This document shows positions 13,503 to 19,464 of a stretch of 23,353 nucleotides of DNA, one piece after another. Location of the stretch: positions 1 through 23,353 of IMG/VR virus record IMGVR_UViG_3300027759_000436. One strand, 5' to 3'. The translations under genes were made by a program, and so were the position numbers. Source of the DNA: a virus. How positions within the stretch are numbered: the first letter of the stretch is position 1; every line of letters begins with the position of its first letter. The notes below the pieces were generated by a model, which was not told where the DNA came from, did no database searches, and saw only the letters and a list, made by a program, of their open reading frames with translations.

Positions 13503-14096
13503 ATGAACCTAGATGATGTAAAGAAATATAAATGTGAAAATGAAAATTTATACGAGAATCCAATACTAGCATCAAGTATTAATCTATTACTAGATTTACC
13601 TGATGTTGTTTGTCGGATTCAAGGAACAAAATATGATTCTGCTCACGGTGAAATATTGACATCTGTGGGTAACGAATATTCAAATGTATTAACTTTGCCT
13701 GGTGCAGAACAATTGATGATATGGATTACTTCAAGAATTCAAGAATCTGCACCACCAGGTAAATCAGTAGATTATATAAAATCTTGGGCTAATAAGATGT
13801 TTTATGGCAGTCAAGGTTTGGTCCATGCACATACACATCCAGATTTTAAAAATTCTGAGTCGGATTTTGTTGCAATATTTTATGTCCACATTCCCGAAAA
13901 TAGTGGTCAATTAGTTTTTATTGATGGTGGTGAGTTTAATAAGAAGTATACTGAATATGATGAATCCAAAATGACAATTATGCAATGTGAATCTGGTGAC
14001 CTAGTAATACACCCTCCTACAATTCCCCATGCAGTAACAGTTCATAATAGTCATGTACCTAGATTGTGTTTGGTGTTTGAGGGAATATATAAATAG
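13503..14096 (+). CDS. 2OG-Fe(II) oxygenase-like protein
   Basis: This 197-residue protein resembles the putative 2OG-Fe(II) oxygenase family (PF13759 type). It has a His-rich metal motif (VHAHTHPDF), a beta strand YVHIPENSGQLVFIDGG, and a C-terminal GDLVIHPPTIPHAV with the distal His, followed by an Arg in HVPRLCLVFEG. Such enzymes use 2-oxoglutarate, iron and oxygen to hydroxylate substrates. It is more divergent than the two copies at 16655 and 17185. It lies just before the late promoter and the Cys-rich gene, so it could act on the same product, although it may belong to the upstream transcript. Confidence 0.65.
   Translation: MNLDDVKKYKCENENLYENPILASSINLLLDLPDVVCRIQGTKYDSAHGEILTSVGNEYSNVLTLPGAEQLMIWITSRIQESAPPGKSVDYIKSWANKMFYGSQGLVHAHTHPDFKNSESDFVAIFYVHIPENSGQLVFIDGGEFNKKYTEYDESKMTIMQCESGDLVIHPPTIPHAVTVHNSHVPRLCLVFEGIYK
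14088..14095 (+). promoter_or_regulatory. T4-type late promoter
   Basis: TATAAATA is an exact match to the T4 late promoter -10 element, recognised by the gp55 sigma factor with gp33 and the gp45 clamp. It overlaps the stop of the upstream gene and lies 30 bases before the ATG of the Cys-rich gene, the usual distance. I found no other exact copy on the + strand. A gp33-like gene lies later in the window. Confidence 0.75.
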
Positions 14097-14124
14097 TCAA
14101 TATATTTGAAAAAAAGAGATTAAA

Positions 14125-14523
14125 ATGACATTACCTTCTTCTGGACCATTAACAATTAATGATGTGAATATCGAAACCGGCCGTGGTTCAGGTACGGCAA
14201 CTGGCCTTGATTGGATACGAGATAATACAAAAGATAATGCCACAGCACTAGGTCAATTATATGATAGGGCTTATTATCAAAGAAATGTTGATGGCAACTG
14301 TAATAATGGAAACTGCACTTCCAATTGTAATTGTGGTAATATTCAATGTAATAATTGTTTGATTGCTGCTACTGTAAACTGTACCAATTGTGATGCACAA
14401 TCTTGGTTACAAGGAAACTGTAACTGTGCTTGTACCTATAATTGCACAACATCAGAAACCTCATACAATTGTAACTGCGCTTGTGCTTGTGCCTGTTTCG
14501 TTTGCGCTTGTGCTTGCTGGTAA
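14125..14523 (+). CDS. Cys-rich protein, candidate modified late/virion protein
   Basis: This is a 132-residue two-part protein. Residues 1-40 (MTLPSSGPLTINDVNIETGR and on) resemble the N-terminus of many phage tail and virion proteins. Residues 59-131 contain 20 cysteines (59, 64, 68, 70, 75, 78, 86, 89, 99, 101, 103, 107, 116, 118, 120, 122, 124, 127, 129 and 131), many in NC and CAC steps, and the last residue is Trp132; W30 and W94 are also present. A T4-type late promoter precedes it and a radical SAM/SPASM gene follows 24 bases later. I infer a substrate that is modified after translation. A plain metal-binding or disulfide-bonded tail protein is the alternative. Confidence 0.75.
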   Translation: MTLPSSGPLTINDVNIETGRGSGTATGLDWIRDNTKDNATALGQLYDRAYYQRNVDGNCNNGNCTSNCNCGNIQCNNCLIAATVNCTNCDAQSWLQGNCNCACTYNCTTSETSYNCNCACACACFVCACACW

Positions 14524-14547
14524 TTATTTTATAAAATTAGGATTAAT

Positions 14548-15990
14548 ATGATATTTGAAATTTTGGCTGAAAAAATTGGCGGCGACAAGGCCACATTTTA
14601 TTATGATAACGAATTTAATATTCTCAAAGACTCCAATGGAAATGTATTTGAATATCCAGAAGAAAAGAGAATGAAACAGGACAAACAACCTGTAGTTCCG
14701 TTTGACAAAAACTCTCCACTTAAAAAATCCAAAGCAATTAAATTACTAAAGATTCAGTTAGGTCTCTCTTGTAATTATTCCTGTGATTATTGTTCTCAAA
14801 AATTTGTTGAAAGAGCACCAGAAACCAGTAAAAAAGATATTGATGATTTCTTGACCAAGTTTGATAAAATGGAATTTAGTGAAGAAAAAGGTCTAAAGAT
14901 TGAATTTTGGGGTGGTGAACCATTTGTTTATTGGAAAACATTAAAACCTTTGGCAGAAGCTTTGCGTGAGAAATTTAGCCATTGGCAAAAAGAACCGGTA
15001 TTTTCTGTTATCACCAATGGTTCTATTCTTAATAAAGAAATCTGTGCTTGGTTGTATTACATGGGATTTCAAGTGTCTATTTCACACGATGGTCCAGGTC
15101 AAGCAGTTCGTGGTCCAGATCCATTTGATGATCCAGACCAAAAGAAAATTATTCTCGACTTCTATAAGATTATGAATAAGCAGAAAAGAATTAGTTTTAA
15201 TTCTATGATGAATAATAAAAATAGAAGTCGTAAAGAAGTTCATGATTGGTTTATCAAACTCACCGGTGATCCTAATGTTCCTTTGGGTGAAGGCACCATT
15301 GTTGATGCATACGATGAAGATGGCCTAACAAATTCATTAGATTCATATCAGGATCATTTTGAATATCGTAAACTGGCTTTCAATGACATTCATGCAAACA
15401 ACGGCAACATTGGTTTTGGTATGATTATATCTAAGATTGATGAGTTCACAACTAATGTATTATCACATTCTGAATCTAAATATTTGGGTCAAAAATGTGG
15501 CATGGATGATGTTGATGTCATGGCAGTTGACTTGCGTGGTAATGTAATGACTTGTCAGAATGTGAGTCCATTAGAAATAGCCAAGAATGGTGAAAGTCAT
15601 TTTGGCGGCACATTAGATAACATTGATGATATCGAAATCAAATCAGCCACACATTGGATGAATCGTGCTGATTGTGCAAGTTGTCCTGTATTGCACATCT
15701 GTAAAGGTTCATGTATGTTCCTCGATGATAAGTATTGGGAAACATCATGTAATAATGCTTACTCTGATGCTGTTGCTTTGTTTGCTTTGTCATTCCAAAA
15801 AATGACAGGTTATGTACCTGTTCTAATTAAGAATGATAGATTACCAAAGGATCGTCAAGATATTTGGGGAACAATGTTGCAACACCAAGAAAAAACTAAA
15901 AGAAAAATTATTCCAATCAAAGTGATTTCGGAAGTAGTGGGTAAAATTGATGAAATTGAAGTTTATGGTAAATCTAAAGTAGAGGCATAA
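14548..15990 (+). CDS. radical SAM/SPASM peptide-modifying enzyme
   Basis: This is a 480-residue radical SAM enzyme. The iron-sulfur motif C75-xxx-C79-xx-C82 (CNYSCDYC) and the SAM-binding WGGEPF at 121-126 are intact. A SPASM-type C-terminal region carries C317, C336, C376, C379, C385, C389 and C401, enough for two auxiliary clusters. SPASM enzymes include the maturases of ribosomal peptides that form thioether or carbon cross-links, and also anaerobic sulfatase activators. The Cys-rich gene just upstream is the obvious substrate candidate. Residues 1-65 form an extra N-terminal region that may bind a leader. AGGA at 14539-14542 supports the start. Confidence 0.9.
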   Translation: MIFEILAEKIGGDKATFYYDNEFNILKDSNGNVFEYPEEKRMKQDKQPVVPFDKNSPLKKSKAIKLLKIQLGLSCNYSCDYCSQKFVERAPETSKKDIDDFLTKFDKMEFSEEKGLKIEFWGGEPFVYWKTLKPLAEALREKFSHWQKEPVFSVITNGSILNKEICAWLYYMGFQVSISHDGPGQAVRGPDPFDDPDQKKIILDFYKIMNKQKRISFNSMMNNKNRSRKEVHDWFIKLTGDPNVPLGEGTIVDAYDEDGLTNSLDSYQDHFEYRKLAFNDIHANNGNIGFGMIISKIDEFTTNVLSHSESKYLGQKCGMDDVDVMAVDLRGNVMTCQNVSPLEIAKNGESHFGGTLDNIDDIEIKSATHWMNRADCASCPVLHICKGSCMFLDDKYWETSCNNAYSDAVALFALSFQKMTGYVPVLIKNDRLPKDRQDIWGTMLQHQEKTKRKIIPIKVISEVVGKIDEIEVYGKSKVEA

Positions 15991-16665
15991 ATGTCGTTAA
16001 CTATATCACCACAATTACAAAAAGCACTAGAGATAGCTTCATCTATTGATGAGGTTATTTCTGTTCAGGCTATCGAACCACCACAAAACATACTAGACCA
16101 AATCGAAAATAAAGATAGTGTGTATTTGGATTTTGTAATTCAAACCAAATCTGGTGAAATGCCTTTTGCTATTGTAGTACCAAAAGTTTTAGTTGATGAT
16201 GTTGATGATTCACTACATATTCCTATTAAAGATTTGTTATCATGCGGTTGCACTCAGGTTGAAGATGGTATTGGTCATATGTGTGGTTATAGTGTATTTG
16301 ATAACATTGGTAAAATGACATATTATGTTCGTGAGTCCGACCAATACTTGGTAAAACTAATTGATGCCGAAGCACCTTCTATTTTTGAACAAACAGAAAA
16401 TTTAAAGAAGTTAATAACAAAACTTGAATCGGTAGATGGTGTAAAACGAATTGTTATTGAAGAAATTGTTGATGATAGTCTAAAACAAAGTTTAGAAGCA
16501 GAACGACCAGTAATTGTCAAAGCATATATTGATGTTAATAGTGATAAAATTATTGACCATTTTGTTTCATTTGCTGTAACAGAATTAGTTTATGATATTG
16601 AAACTAGTCATGAGTGGGCTGTAAATAATCTTATGGATATGATTGAAAAAAATAATGCACAATGA
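15991..16665 (+). CDS. unknown protein with two similar halves
   Basis: This 224-residue acidic protein belongs to no family I recognise. Its two halves look related. Residues about 12-84 (ALEIASSIDEVISVQAIEPP onward) and 127-216 (LITKLESVDGVKRIVIEEIV onward) share the order helix, S-(I/V)-D-x-V, beta strands, then a region ending LL or LM. There are three cysteines (CGC and C) between the halves. It starts directly after the radical SAM stop and overlaps the next oxygenase gene, so it is likely a partner in the modification system, perhaps a substrate-binding protein. That role is inferred from position only. Confidence 0.65.
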   Translation: MSLTISPQLQKALEIASSIDEVISVQAIEPPQNILDQIENKDSVYLDFVIQTKSGEMPFAIVVPKVLVDDVDDSLHIPIKDLLSCGCTQVEDGIGHMCGYSVFDNIGKMTYYVRESDQYLVKLIDAEAPSIFEQTENLKKLITKLESVDGVKRIVIEEIVDDSLKQSLEAERPVIVKAYIDVNSDKIIDHFVSFAVTELVYDIETSHEWAVNNLMDMIEKNNAQ

Positions 16666-17188
16666 GAAAATATTATTTGGTACACCGGTTTGGATTCACG
16701 ATTTAGATATATCAAATAGTAAACTGGAAGAAGAAGGTCGACCATATAAAACTGGTAACTACTTTGACCTCAATACACCAGAAATCAACAAATTAAAATA
16801 CACAGTAAAATCTTACTGTGACCAAATAGCCGAACAATATCATTGGAATAAAAAAGCCACTTATATTGTTGGTCGGCAAAATCCAATATTTCCAGGAGAA
16901 AATGATACGCCCCATGGTCATCACCATGCAATGATGGTTGCCGTCTATTATCTTCAAGTGCCAGAAAAATCAGGTGACATCATATTGAACGATCCTCGTG
17001 GTATGGTATTTTGGGTTGATCCACAAGTTGTCAATGATGGACCACATAAGAGTTGTCGGTCATATCATCGTATCACACCAAAACCAGGAATGTTGTTGAT
17101 GTTCCCAAATTATTTAATTCACTCCGTTGAAACCAATATGAGTAATGAAATGAGATTGTCTATTATGATGGAAATTTATAATCTATGA
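16655..17188 (+). CDS. 2OG-Fe(II) oxygenase, copy 1
   Basis: This is a 177-residue member of the putative 2OG-Fe(II) oxygenase family (PF13759 type). The motifs in order are LFGTPVW at the start, RQNPIFPG (74-81), the His cluster HGHHH (87-91), VPEKSGDIILNDPRG (102-116), TPKPGMLLMFP (141-151), IHSVET with H156, and R167 that would hold 2-oxoglutarate. These enzymes hydroxylate or otherwise oxidise substrates. ATG 16655 lies inside the preceding gene; an in-frame TTG at 16643 is possible. Its paralogue follows with a four-base overlap. A peptide, perhaps the Cys-rich protein, is a plausible substrate. Confidence 0.85.
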   Translation: MHNEKILFGTPVWIHDLDISNSKLEEEGRPYKTGNYFDLNTPEINKLKYTVKSYCDQIAEQYHWNKKATYIVGRQNPIFPGENDTPHGHHHAMMVAVYYLQVPEKSGDIILNDPRGMVFWVDPQVVNDGPHKSCRSYHRITPKPGMLLMFPNYLIHSVETNMSNEMRLSIMMEIYNL

Positions 17189-17721
17189 GTAGAATCAATT
17201 TATTTTCCACACCTGTTTGGACAATAAAGTTAAATGATGATGAATTAAATTCTAACTTATTTTCAATTGCAGGCAACTATAAAGTTGGCACCGATTATTT
17301 TGAACAGAATAACGAGTCGGTGTTACAATTAAAAAGTCAAATTCAATCCGCTCTATCTGATGTGGCAACAGAATGTGGTTTCTCTACCAATTTTAAATTT
17401 ACTGGTCGTCAGAACCCAATGATGCCAGGAAAAAACAATTCACCACACCATCATCCTGATTGTAAGTTAGTTGCTGTGTATTATGTTAAGGTGCCAGAAA
17501 AATCAGGAGATATTTTACTACATGACCCAAGAGGTTCTATATTGTGGTCAGACCCACAAGCAAGAACTGATGTTGCTTGGGAATCACACAGACCTTACCA
17601 TAAGATTACACCGACACCAGGTACATTATTAATATTTCCTGGTTATGTAATACATTCGGTTGAAACAAATCTAAGTAATGAAATCAGAATATCAATTGCA
17701 ATATCTACGAGGTTCGAATGA
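17185..17721 (+). CDS. 2OG-Fe(II) oxygenase, copy 2
   Basis: This 178-residue paralogue of the preceding gene has the same motif order: LFSTPVW, RQNPMMPG, HHHPD, YYVKVPEKSGDILLHDPRG, TPTPGTLLIFPGYVIHSVET and NEIRISIAI. Metal-binding His residues and the cosubstrate Arg are kept, so both copies look active. The N-terminal parts differ most, as expected if the two act on different residues or substrates. Tandem duplication is the simple origin. It overlaps both neighbours by four bases (ATGA), placing it firmly in the operon with the halogenase. Confidence 0.85.
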   Translation: MSRINLFSTPVWTIKLNDDELNSNLFSIAGNYKVGTDYFEQNNESVLQLKSQIQSALSDVATECGFSTNFKFTGRQNPMMPGKNNSPHHHPDCKLVAVYYVKVPEKSGDILLHDPRGSILWSDPQARTDVAWESHRPYHKITPTPGTLLIFPGYVIHSVETNLSNEIRISIAISTRFE

Positions 17722-18863
17722 AATATACAATTTTAGGTGGCGGCACAGCAGGTTGGTTGACCGCACTATTTGTTAATAAACATTATCCAAACGATGATGT
17801 TACTGTAATAGCCAGTTCCGAAATTGGAATATTAGGTGCAGGTGAAGGCACCACTCCACACTTTATAAATTTTCTTAATCAGTTGGGTATCGATGAAAAA
17901 GATATCTATGAAAACTGTAAGGCAACCATTAAAACAGGAATTAAATTCACTAATTGGAATGGCGAAGGTGATGAATACTATCACAACTTTAACTGTATAG
18001 GTCCTGATTTACACGCTTTGCATTTTGATGCCAGTTTATTGGCCAAATACTTTCAATCGTTGGCTATCTCCCGTGGTGTGAAACTAATTGATGATGAAGT
18101 GGTAGATATAAAGTGTAAAGAGAATAAAGATGTGGAAAGTTTTATTCTGAAGTCTGGTAATGTGGAACATACCGATTTTGTTTTTGATTGTTCTGGATTT
18201 AGGAGATTAATTATCGGAGGGCTTTACAAATCAGAATGGATAGAGTATAATATGCCTTGTAGGAGGGCAATACCATTCTTTTTACCGAATGATAATACCA
18301 ATCTGCCTCAGTATACCGAATCAGTTGCAATGAAGTATGGATGGATATGGAAGATTCCTGTTCAAGGTCGATATGGTTGTGGTTATGTGTTTGATTGCAC
18401 AAAGACTACAGATGAAGAAGCCAAACAAGAGATAAGAGATTATCTCGGACACGATTTTGTATCACCCAAGACATTCAACTTTAATGCTGGTTCTTATAAA
18501 GATGTTTGGATTAACAATTGTTTAGGTGTAGGTTTATCTTCTGGTTTTATTGAACCACTAGAAGCTACATCAATATGGATTCAGATTATAACATTGAATA
18601 CTTTTATTGAATGTGATGGCAATAAAGAAAAATTGAACCACGACATGAAAGAAATGAATGAAGATATTTTAGGTTTCTTATACTATCATTACATGACAAA
18701 AAGAACTGATAGTAAATTTTGGTCAGAGTTTCAAAAAGATAATAAGATGCCTGAAAAATTAAAAATGAGATTAGAAAATAAGTTGATTACAAATAATTTT
18801 AGTATGTTTACCGAAGAAAGTTGGCAGACAATTAAAGAAGGAATAAATTATGTTAATTCCTAA
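17718..18863 (+). CDS. flavin-dependent tryptophan-halogenase-like protein
   Basis: This 381-residue protein has the FAD motif GGGTAGW (7-13), GAGEGTTPHF (40-49), the family Lys in ATIKTGIKFTNW (K72 by motif, equivalent to PrnA Lys79), the halogenase signature WxWxIP (W209-I-W211-K-I-P214) and GFIEPLEATS (276-285), which carries the active-site Glu. All key features are present. At 381 residues it is far shorter than free-tryptophan halogenases such as PrnA (about 540), mainly at the C-terminal, substrate-covering end. This would suit a larger or peptide-bound tryptophan, or another aromatic. Related genes occur in cyanophages. Operon overlap with the oxygenases, and a neighbour ending in Trp, suggest a shared product. 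Confidence 0.88.
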   Translation: MKYTILGGGTAGWLTALFVNKHYPNDDVTVIASSEIGILGAGEGTTPHFINFLNQLGIDEKDIYENCKATIKTGIKFTNWNGEGDEYYHNFNCIGPDLHALHFDASLLAKYFQSLAISRGVKLIDDEVVDIKCKENKDVESFILKSGNVEHTDFVFDCSGFRRLIIGGLYKSEWIEYNMPCRRAIPFFLPNDNTNLPQYTESVAMKYGWIWKIPVQGRYGCGYVFDCTKTTDEEAKQEIRDYLGHDFVSPKTFNFNAGSYKDVWINNCLGVGLSSGFIEPLEATSIWIQIITLNTFIECDGNKEKLNHDMKEMNEDILGFLYYHYMTKRTDSKFWSEFQKDNKMPEKLKMRLENKLITNNFSMFTEESWQTIKEGINYVNS

Positions 18864-19464
18864 ATGCATTGATGGTAAGTTTGAAATAATTGATGTGCTT
18901 GATCCTTGGGATTGCATTAATAATAAGTTGCTTTGGGATATAGGTTCAGTTGATAAAAATTTGATTGATTGGTTTAATATGCAAAAAATTAAACCAAAAA
19001 CTGTGTTAGAATTAGGATGTGGTTCGGGAATCAATTCTATTTGGTTATCCAAACAAGGTTGTGATGTTACTGCGATAGATTTTCATGATTCAGCTTTATC
19101 AAAAACAAAACAAATATCAGAAGAAAATAAAATAAAAATTGATTTATTAAAAATAGACTTGATTAAAGAAAAATGGCCAAAAAAAAAGTTTGATTTTATT
19201 TTTGACCGAGGTTGTTTTCATATCTTTAATGAATTAGAATGTGAAATTTATACCTCTAAATTGATTGAGTGTTTGACATCTAGTGGAGTTTGGTTAAGTT
19301 TGATTGGAAGTAAAGAACAGTTTGAATGGTTTTGGTCGGCAACAAAAATAATCAATATGGTTGAGCCAAAATTAAAAATTTTAAGTTTAAACAAAACAAC
19401 ACTAGAAACAATAGATGGCCATGATGTGAAAGCGTGGGCACTATTAACCAAAAGAAAAATATAA
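18850..19464 (+). CDS. class I SAM-dependent methyltransferase
   Basis: This is a 204-residue class I methyltransferase with the SAM-binding motif LELGCGSGINS near residue 53, the acidic strand-2 end VTAIDF, and the strand-4 region FDFIFDRGCFH. The general look is of small-molecule or thiopurine-type methyltransferases rather than DNA methylases, as no DPPY-type motif is seen. It overlaps the halogenase gene by 14 bases. Its DNA is more AT-rich than the genes around it, with long A/T runs between 19080 and 19200, hinting at separate acquisition. It may act on the same product as its operon neighbours; this is inference. Confidence 0.85.
   Translation: MLIPKCIDGKFEIIDVLDPWDCINNKLLWDIGSVDKNLIDWFNMQKIKPKTVLELGCGSGINSIWLSKQGCDVTAIDFHDSALSKTKQISEENKIKIDLLKIDLIKEKWPKKKFDFIFDRGCFHIFNELECEIYTSKLIECLTSSGVWLSLIGSKEQFEWFWSATKIINMVEPKLKILSLNKTTLETIDGHDVKAWALLTKRKI

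Follow-up and report, generated by a model that had tools for sequence, protein, structure and literature searches.

A candidate radical SAM maturation system for Cys-rich tips of tail-fiber-type proteins in phages

What do a radical S-adenosylmethionine (SAM)/SPASM enzyme, three oxygenase-like proteins, a halogenase and a methyltransferase modify in a phage, and is their substrate the Cys-rich protein encoded among them? The question is raised by a cluster of eight genes at positions 13503-19464 of a 23,353-nt viral sequence, IMG/VR record IMGVR_UViG_3300027759_000436, the whole of which is called the window here. A preliminary description had delineated the eight genes, all on the plus strand; this layout was confirmed, and profile scans with Pfam, NCBIfam and PHROGs bore out the assigned enzyme or unknown classes for seven of the eight proteins, with the Cys-rich protein falling into no confident family. 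The explanation that we favor, and consider likely as a whole, is that a dedicated radical SAM/SPASM enzyme (hereafter rSAM) matures the Cys-rich tip of a tail-fiber-type protein, and that accessory enzymes decorate this tip. The relation between the enzyme and the tip is held with good confidence, and the most likely chemistry, thioethers between Cys and neighboring residues at several sites, is given an even chance.

The Cys-rich open reading frame (ORF; 14125-14523, plus strand; 132 aa, 20 Cys) has the highest Cys count among the 111 stop-to-stop frames of at least 60 codons in the window. All 20 Cys lie within the last 78 residues, where the pattern C-x-C occurs 9 times compared to a mean of 4.8 in shuffled sequences (9 or more in 168 of 10,000 shuffles) and C-C does not occur, an absence seen in 16 of 10,000 shuffles. 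The protein consists of an N-terminal head (MTLPSSGPLTINDVNIE...; 14125-14292), which could serve in virion attachment, and a Cys-rich tip of N-C and A-C repeats (14293-14520), the proposed rSAM substrate, which ends with a Trp codon (14518-14520), the proposed halogenation site. The head resembles the start of relatives with differing C-termini, and its residues 1-36 weakly match phrog_26817 (E = 0.0036). In an alignment of 20 sequences including that from the window (A4), 12 Cys are invariant, and an Asn that is likewise invariant stands before 8 of these. Searching a phage collection with tblastn yielded no match to either the Cys-rich protein or the duplicated protein described below; in IMG/VR, the best 80 of 87 relatives of the Cys-rich protein were used. 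Among 100 distinct proteins of the window family, the tip is followed by a further domain in 65, by a Peptidase_S74 domain in 3 and by a Hint-like domain in 1 (L066, below the cutoff); it forms the C-terminus in 30, and the remaining protein is a shortened copy (L193, within the L191 cluster). The further domain was predicted to be helical in one model (L015), for which a fold search found no PDB match at E <= 0.001.

The rSAM and Cys-rich genes are one unit, linked in both directions. In the first set of loci, both genes were present in 87, always on the same strand (some of these loci represent one contig twice), separated by -56 to 66 bp in 80 loci and by 616 to 1566 bp in the remaining 7, with the rSAM gene first in 56 and the Cys-rich gene first in 31. 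Because most of these loci had been picked by their Cys-rich gene, the linkage was retested with loci found by the rSAM alone, using an rSAM alignment (A1) as the query; relatives were encoded on 494 IMG/VR stretches, of which the best 80 were used. A Cys-rich gene was present in 44 of the 47 rSAM-found viral loci outside the Cys-rich set, and in the other three (L141, L178 and L197) the contig stops beside or inside the rSAM gene. Regular occurrence without the Cys-rich gene, which the preliminary description had named for the enzymes as a finding that would speak against it, was not observed for the rSAM, and comparative genomics now lends good support to its central suggestion, an action of the enzymes on the Cys-rich protein. 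After clustering of the viral rSAMs at 95% identity, 82 of 83 clusters, which include loci partly found through the Cys-rich gene, contained this gene, 72 of them within 100 bp; six loci with a best rSAM match below 150 bits (L042 and L130-L134) were left out of the clusters, L130 among them having a Cys tip. The reverse test relied on the DNA pattern NCNCNC[NTDA]C, which is blind to both the rSAM and the fiber, and retrieved at least 120 stretches, 104 with the motif in an open frame. An rSAM match accompanied 85 of the 110 in-frame ORFs and 32 of the 34 with 3.5 kb of sequence on both sides; the match of L314, counted among the 32, scores 33 bits on the opposite strand, and we regard it as spurious. 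When distinct proteins were counted, a same-strand rSAM (at least 40 bits) was present for 66 of 88; among the other 22, 18 have less than 2.7 kb of downstream sequence, and the remaining four (L269, L290, L314 and one of L319), with at least 3.8 kb downstream, are such short or low-complexity frames that they perhaps are not genes. Many of the pattern-found loci (L213, L220, L227 and others) also encode, between the fiber and the rSAM, a conserved protein of about 270 aa (a 28-member family); the gp029 position of Achromobacter phage JWF belongs to another family, which has 12 members.

Many freshwater phages have the same core pair, which is also found on contigs of bacteria. The set from outside the viral contigs comprised 45 loci on bacterial-genome contigs, probably prophages, and two sequenced Achromobacter phages, JWF and 2-1, both of which carry the pair; together, these formed 37 clusters (35 contig, 2 phage). 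Outside viral contigs, the Cys-rich family of the window itself was found only on a Polynucleobacter contig (L091). The other partners are usually fiber-type proteins encoded on the same strand that end in repeats of the NCNCNCACDCCC, NCNCACRC or CDCACACDCACNC type or carry the repeat right before a Hint domain. Across the 37 clusters, 33 of the 1207 ORFs that lie within 3.5 kb on the same strand contain CxCxC, compared to 1 of 1079 farther away and 10 of 2457 on the opposite strand. An Asn-containing CxCxC tip, either C-terminal or preceding Hint, is present in 29 of the 37 clusters, one of them with the window family. The residue before the Cys, for 187 Cys in 30 tips of this set, was Asn in 112 cases, Ala in 25 and Asp in 19. 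The same tip sits on several stem families: single linkage at E = 1e-4 yielded 5 families among 27 stems and 11 among 105 once the pattern-found set was added. Judging by these sequences, the rSAM goes with the tip to a greater degree than with the remaining parts of the protein. Tail-fiber profiles of PHROGs matched 6 of 8 scanned bacterial-contig partners at E <= 1e-5 (L092, with collagen repeats, L096, L099, L103, L121 and L130); the best PHROG match of L130 was to head decoration, L093 matched a tail fiber only at 0.002, and L104 had no match. The partner in Achromobacter phage 2-1 matched a tail-fiber profile at 8.8e-7.

Three window-family relatives (L054, L160 and L202), that is, 3 of the 100 distinct Cys-rich proteins, contain Peptidase_S74, a fiber chaperone known for cleaving itself off, above the cutoff after the repeat; they were found by motif and then by Pfam. 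In each, a Ser directly follows the tip, with a Lys at +5. Peptidase_S74 is described as releasing itself through a cut in front of its catalytic Ser; the bond cleaved in T5 pb1 is Thr1263-Ser1264, with the Lys at 1269, and this cleavage is reported to unmask the distal receptor-binding end (PMC4690869). In the relatives with S74 or Hint domains, self-cleavage would be expected to leave the modified tip as the host-facing C-terminus of the mature protein.

The rSAM (14548-15990, plus strand; Radical_SAM 1.9e-7, TIGR04085 1.2e-7, phrog_1802 4.8e-60) is the proposed tip maturase. The CxxxCxxC motif and seven further Cys towards the C-terminus are invariant in the 18 diverse relatives of alignment A1, a set that we take to indicate a two-cluster SPASM enzyme, and the match to the SPASM domain (TIGR04085, 32 bits) exceeds the cutoff of 27. 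The top NCBIfam profiles, among them those of PapB, CcpM and the quinohemoprotein maturase, represent peptide maturases, with scores mostly far under the family cutoffs. PapB, CteB and CcpM are ranthipeptide/thioether rSAM-SPASM maturases. PDB matches included 8vpo, 5wgg and an anaerobic sulfatase-maturating enzyme (4k37, 2e-8), and weak similarity to the dynobactin maturase profile (3.1e-15) was detected as well.

The best surviving alternative, which we regard as unlikely, is that the tip binds metal or an Fe-S cluster and that the rSAM alters it in a single, limited respect, such as the conversion of Cys to formylglycine known from sulfatase maturases, with most Cys ligating metal or forming disulfides. 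The CxC-rich sequence would be plausible for a metal-binding peptide, the sulfatase maturase profile matches the rSAM at 1.6e-13, in line with the 4k37 similarity, and one Achromobacter phage record annotates the rSAM gene as a sulfatase maturase. However, this profile is outscored by those of PapB, CcpM and the quinohemoprotein maturase, the invariant Asn-Cys series suggests many equivalent sites rather than one, and metal binding alone would need no dedicated rSAM.

Considerably less probable is a free peptide of the ribosomally synthesized and post-translationally modified peptide (RiPP) type, which would be released from the Cys-rich precursor, leave the infected cell by export and serve as a toxin, signal or metal chelator. 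The enzyme classes of the cluster are those of RiPP clusters, and the Cys-tip proteins of L116 and L109 are just 72-92 aa long; these smallest partners alone would not exclude a RiPP-type precursor. Against this, the partners elsewhere are tail-fiber-type proteins that reach 616 aa in length and have a C-terminal tip, and the genes for the two tandem 72-77-aa Cys-tip proteins of L116 (Bradyrhizobium hipponense) precede those for a tail sheath and tube by about 5.5 kb. Among the matches listed for the eight window proteins in Pfam, NCBIfam and PHROGs, there was no profile match to a RiPP recognition element (RRE; PqqD-like), a protease or an exporter, although a diverged RRE would escape such a search. 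The partners (72-616 aa), several with tail-fiber stems and the repeat at the C-terminus, do not conform to a small precursor with leader and core. Because it does not show the leader, recognition domain and small precursor of a RiPP, the system was not classed as one, and the phage-encoded natural product that the preliminary description had offered as one outcome is not supported. The L116 locus also encodes a desaturase-like protein (assigned by eye, without a Pfam match), an rSAM and two similar hydroxylase-like proteins, one of which, when scanned, matched Asp_Arg_Hydrox at 2.6e-4, just below the cutoff.

The flavin-dependent halogenase (17718-18863, plus strand; Trp_halogenase 6.4e-93, 312.5 bits against a cutoff of 21) tracks a single residue of the tip. 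Among sequences in the PDB, Trp halogenases come closest to it (best 1.7e-56), and it contains GxGxxG, WIWKIP and KTGIKFTNW. The corresponding motifs GxGxxG, WxWxIP and the catalytic-Lys region, which we take to be those of flavin-dependent halogenases, are present in 16, 16 and 15, respectively, of the 16 distinct proteins scoring above 100 bits. At the same threshold, 14 viral clusters have a halogenase; in 13 of these, the repeat of the Cys-rich protein is followed by a terminal Trp, and in the 14th (L160), the tip CACFW places Trp128 just before the S74 Ser129. Conversely, a tip Trp, located at the C-terminus or immediately ahead of the S74 Ser, occurs in 15 clusters, 14 of which have the halogenase; in the 15th (L074), the contig stops 8 bp after its oxygenase gene. 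L202, an S74 form with ICACAC before the Ser, has neither the tip Trp nor a halogenase, with more than 9 kb of downstream sequence covered, and L168 ends in Trp only through its further domain. From these sequences, the halogenase of the window lineage probably acts on the C-terminal Trp of the Cys-rich protein. C-terminal action has precedent in reports that SrpI makes 6-bromo-Trp at a peptide C-terminus and that Thal accepts polypeptide Trp only at the C-terminus (PMC12518702).

Several observations temper this assignment. In an rSAM tree (FastTree, 85 rows), the tip Trp requires two changes and the halogenase three, one of these three coming from the cut contig, so that the near-exact match between Trp and halogenase represents about two independent events; a test on independent pairs had too few pairs. 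L188 encodes a diverged Trp_halogenase-family protein (53 bits; Pfam 5.2e-27), with WMFGVP in place of WxWxIP, near a tip without Trp, and 47-52-bit matches to the halogenase family lie near tips without Trp in L276, L302 and L307. Many loci without a halogenase are contig fragments; in L054, for example (tip CDCLF), the contig stops 754 bp after the last oxygenase gene, which makes the absence of a halogenase weak evidence. L090, at the edge of a bacterial contig, has a halogenase and an rSAM with no visible Cys-rich gene.

The other enzymes vary among phages. Three 2-oxoglutarate (2OG)-Fe(II) oxygenase-like proteins of the PF13759 type are encoded on the plus strand of the window, one directly upstream of the Cys-rich gene (13503-14096; 2OG-FeII_Oxy_5 E = 5.5e-9, phrog_81 1.4e-16) and two downstream (16643-17188, 1.1e-19, and 17185-17721, 1.9e-20). 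Such genes are nine-fold denser within 3 kb of the rSAM/Cys-rich pair than beyond (0.176 compared to 0.019 per kb) and are present in 53 of 81 viral clusters. The start codon of the gene at 16643 is TTG, which corrects the preliminary description; an in-frame ATG lies four codons downstream. The product of this gene has HGHHHA where its neighbor has HHHPDC at the putative metal site and may be altered or inactive. Adjacent genes abut or overlap from 15991 to 19464, as described previously.

The protein encoded at 15991-16665 (plus strand), possibly an adaptor or chaperone, is a true internal duplication, as had been proposed. Profiles of its two halves align with a probability of 95% (E = 2.7e-8), single sequences giving no convincing alignment, and the loci L043, L046 and L171 encode each half in an ORF of its own, one adjoining the other. 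A structural model (m8df7ca076a0a; predicted local distance difference test score 77, predicted template modeling score 0.58) has two predicted alpha-beta-alpha-beta-beta-alpha halves; a fold search with it found no PDB match at E <= 0.001. The duplicated protein is present in 12 of the 14 halogenase clusters. By contrast, the class-I SAM methyltransferase (18850-19464, plus strand, overlapping the halogenase gene; Methyltransf_25 9.5e-14), which had been counted in the set, is not conserved: the profile relative was found only in this virus and on one near-identical IMG/VR contig.

Further genes occur in the vicinity of the pair. A second rSAM, of the B12 type, was found there in 19 viral clusters, of which 9 also have the halogenase (for example, L009:10263-11759 and L007:4359-5873; in L009, TIGR04072 2e-18 and PhpK-type 2e-15, both below the cutoff), and could perform C-methylation. 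A fatty-acid-desaturase-like gene (PF00487, 4.4e-13 in L013:1850-2575), possibly encoding another tip-modifying enzyme, is present in 17 viral clusters, none with the halogenase, often between the rSAM and Cys-rich genes in types with the further domain. Loci in which we noted this gene are L013, L019, L065, L081, L142, L143, L162 and L181. The accessory enzymes are modular around the rSAM/Cys-rich pair.

Some phage records have halogenases, in part with adjacent 2OG genes, but without this rSAM, and together with the desaturase-like genes they would fit a hitch-hiking cassette in which the rSAM and Cys-rich genes merely travel together and the targets of the enzymes are a host molecule, phage nucleotides or lipids; we consider this quite improbable, given that the linkage is kept across several fiber stem families with the same tip repeat and in both gene orders and that the halogenase tracks one tip residue.

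Certain findings weigh against tip maturation itself. The window Cys-rich protein has no Pfam, NCBIfam or strong PHROG family match, and the scanned neighbors in the window, such as an exonuclease, helicase loader and single-strand DNA-binding protein, include no tail gene, so that its assignment as a tail-fiber-type virion protein is made by homology to relatives. By sequence, the window is that of a T4-like phage, as described originally: the helicase loader (phrog_269, 1.8e-58) and the single-strand DNA-binding protein (phrog_224, 2.1e-30) belong to the T4-type replication genes, which we take to be T4 hallmarks. The 65 relatives with a domain after the tip would need a further step to obtain a terminal tip. 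Among the clusters from outside the viral contigs, 8 of 37 have no Asn-containing tip (L129, L126, L125, L127, L122, L118, L119 and L090): L125 and L127 have an Asn-less CxCxC tip, L129 and L090 are short or edge contigs, and L118, L119, L122 and L126 lack the tip for no evident reason. Finally, the family cutoffs are missed by so much (for the best NCBIfam profile, PapB, NF047865, 80.2 bits compared to 340) that the bond type is unreadable from homology.

With these points taken into account, we still favor maturation of the tip by its dedicated rSAM and infer the following course of events. The Cys-rich protein, made with a conserved head and a Cys-rich C-terminal tip, would be the substrate of the adjoining rSAM, which would take hydrogen from residues of the (N/A/D)-Cys repeat and bond Cys sulfurs to neighboring carbons, with thioethers as the most likely bonds. 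These, each with loss of 2 H, would yield a stiff, compact tip. Phage-specific decoration would follow the rSAM step: given their linkage and enzyme class, the 2OG oxygenases may hydroxylate tip residues, perhaps Asn or Asp beside Cys, and, in the window lineage, the flavin halogenase would halogenate the C-terminal Trp. The position at the end of a fiber suggests that the tip may be a chemically finished receptor-binding one.

A broader generalization can be offered tentatively: a widespread class of phages may have natural-product-like tips fused to their tail fibers, each a thioether-knotted (N/A/D)-Cys needle that is borne by stems of several families along with its dedicated rSAM, further decorated by hydroxylation, C-methylation (with a B12-type rSAM in some), desaturation or a halogenated-Trp cap and exposed at the end of the fiber through self-cleavage by S74 or Hint. 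Speculatively, the similarity to the dynobactin maturase allows for tips that mimic outer-membrane-protein signals. If this generalization holds, chemistry would, beside protein sequence, set the receptor-binding surface, a new layer of host recognition. If the proposed maturation itself is correct, phages finish virion parts by radical SAM chemistry, natural substrates would be assigned to the phage rSAM family phrog_1802 and to one phage tryptophan halogenase lineage, and chemical modification would join the factors that set phage host range. The Cys repeat at a fiber end together with an rSAM offers a searchable signature, and the S74 and Hint variants give clean predictions for the mature end.

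In its working mode, the proposed system would be similar to RiPP or quinohemoprotein-type maturation. With the PapB-type and quinohemoprotein amine dehydrogenase maturases, it shares the CxxxCxxC core, the seven other invariant Cys, located in the SPASM region, and an adjoining gene for a Cys-rich partner, and PapB is reported to tolerate varied Cys-to-acceptor spacing and sequences (PMC9413430). It differs from PapB-type systems in scoring far under their cutoffs, in its fiber-type partner with C-terminal repeats, in the acceptors, which would be Asn, Ala or Asp, and in that neither an RRE nor a separate leader was seen among the eight window proteins. The window halogenase belongs to the same flavin halogenase family, with the same motifs, as SrpI, MibH, ChlH and the viral VirX1. 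SrpI is described as acting on a C-terminal Trp (PMC12518702), as proposed here; the substrate in our case would be the tip of a virion protein. VirX1 is a cyanophage halogenase reported to have broad in vitro substrates (PMC8407142). We considered a substrate type shared with VirX1-type cyanophage halogenases and do not claim it, because the 27 ORFs around the halogenase genes of Syn10, Syn1 and HTVC008M are without a Cys tip or C-terminal Trp. Cyanophage Syn10 (L209) has two adjoining halogenase-like genes and at least one gene for an oxygenase-like protein after short fiber-like genes (PQGGNFSHNH...), identified by eye except for the annotated halogenase, and this could be another fiber-decorating island.

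The S74 forms resemble T5 pb1 and the K1F endosialidase, which have a C-terminal intramolecular S74 chaperone, the Ser and the Lys at +5 corresponding to Ser1264 and Lys1269 of T5 pb1; unlike in those proteins, cleavage would here expose a Cys repeat encoded beside a modifying enzyme. Radical SAM cassettes have been described in the tail-fiber island of T4-like pelagimyophages, among host-recognition clusters (PMC7029224). As described there, these genes, which may belong to another rSAM family, are tied to no Cys-rich substrate, and no mechanism is proposed. Among the matches listed in a search of the open-access literature, with subscription papers and most preprints outside its range, there was no paper on rSAM modification of phage fibers. 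The recurrence of the enzyme and its tip in so many phages and bacterial contigs suggests an undescribed way in which viruses build host-recognition tips.

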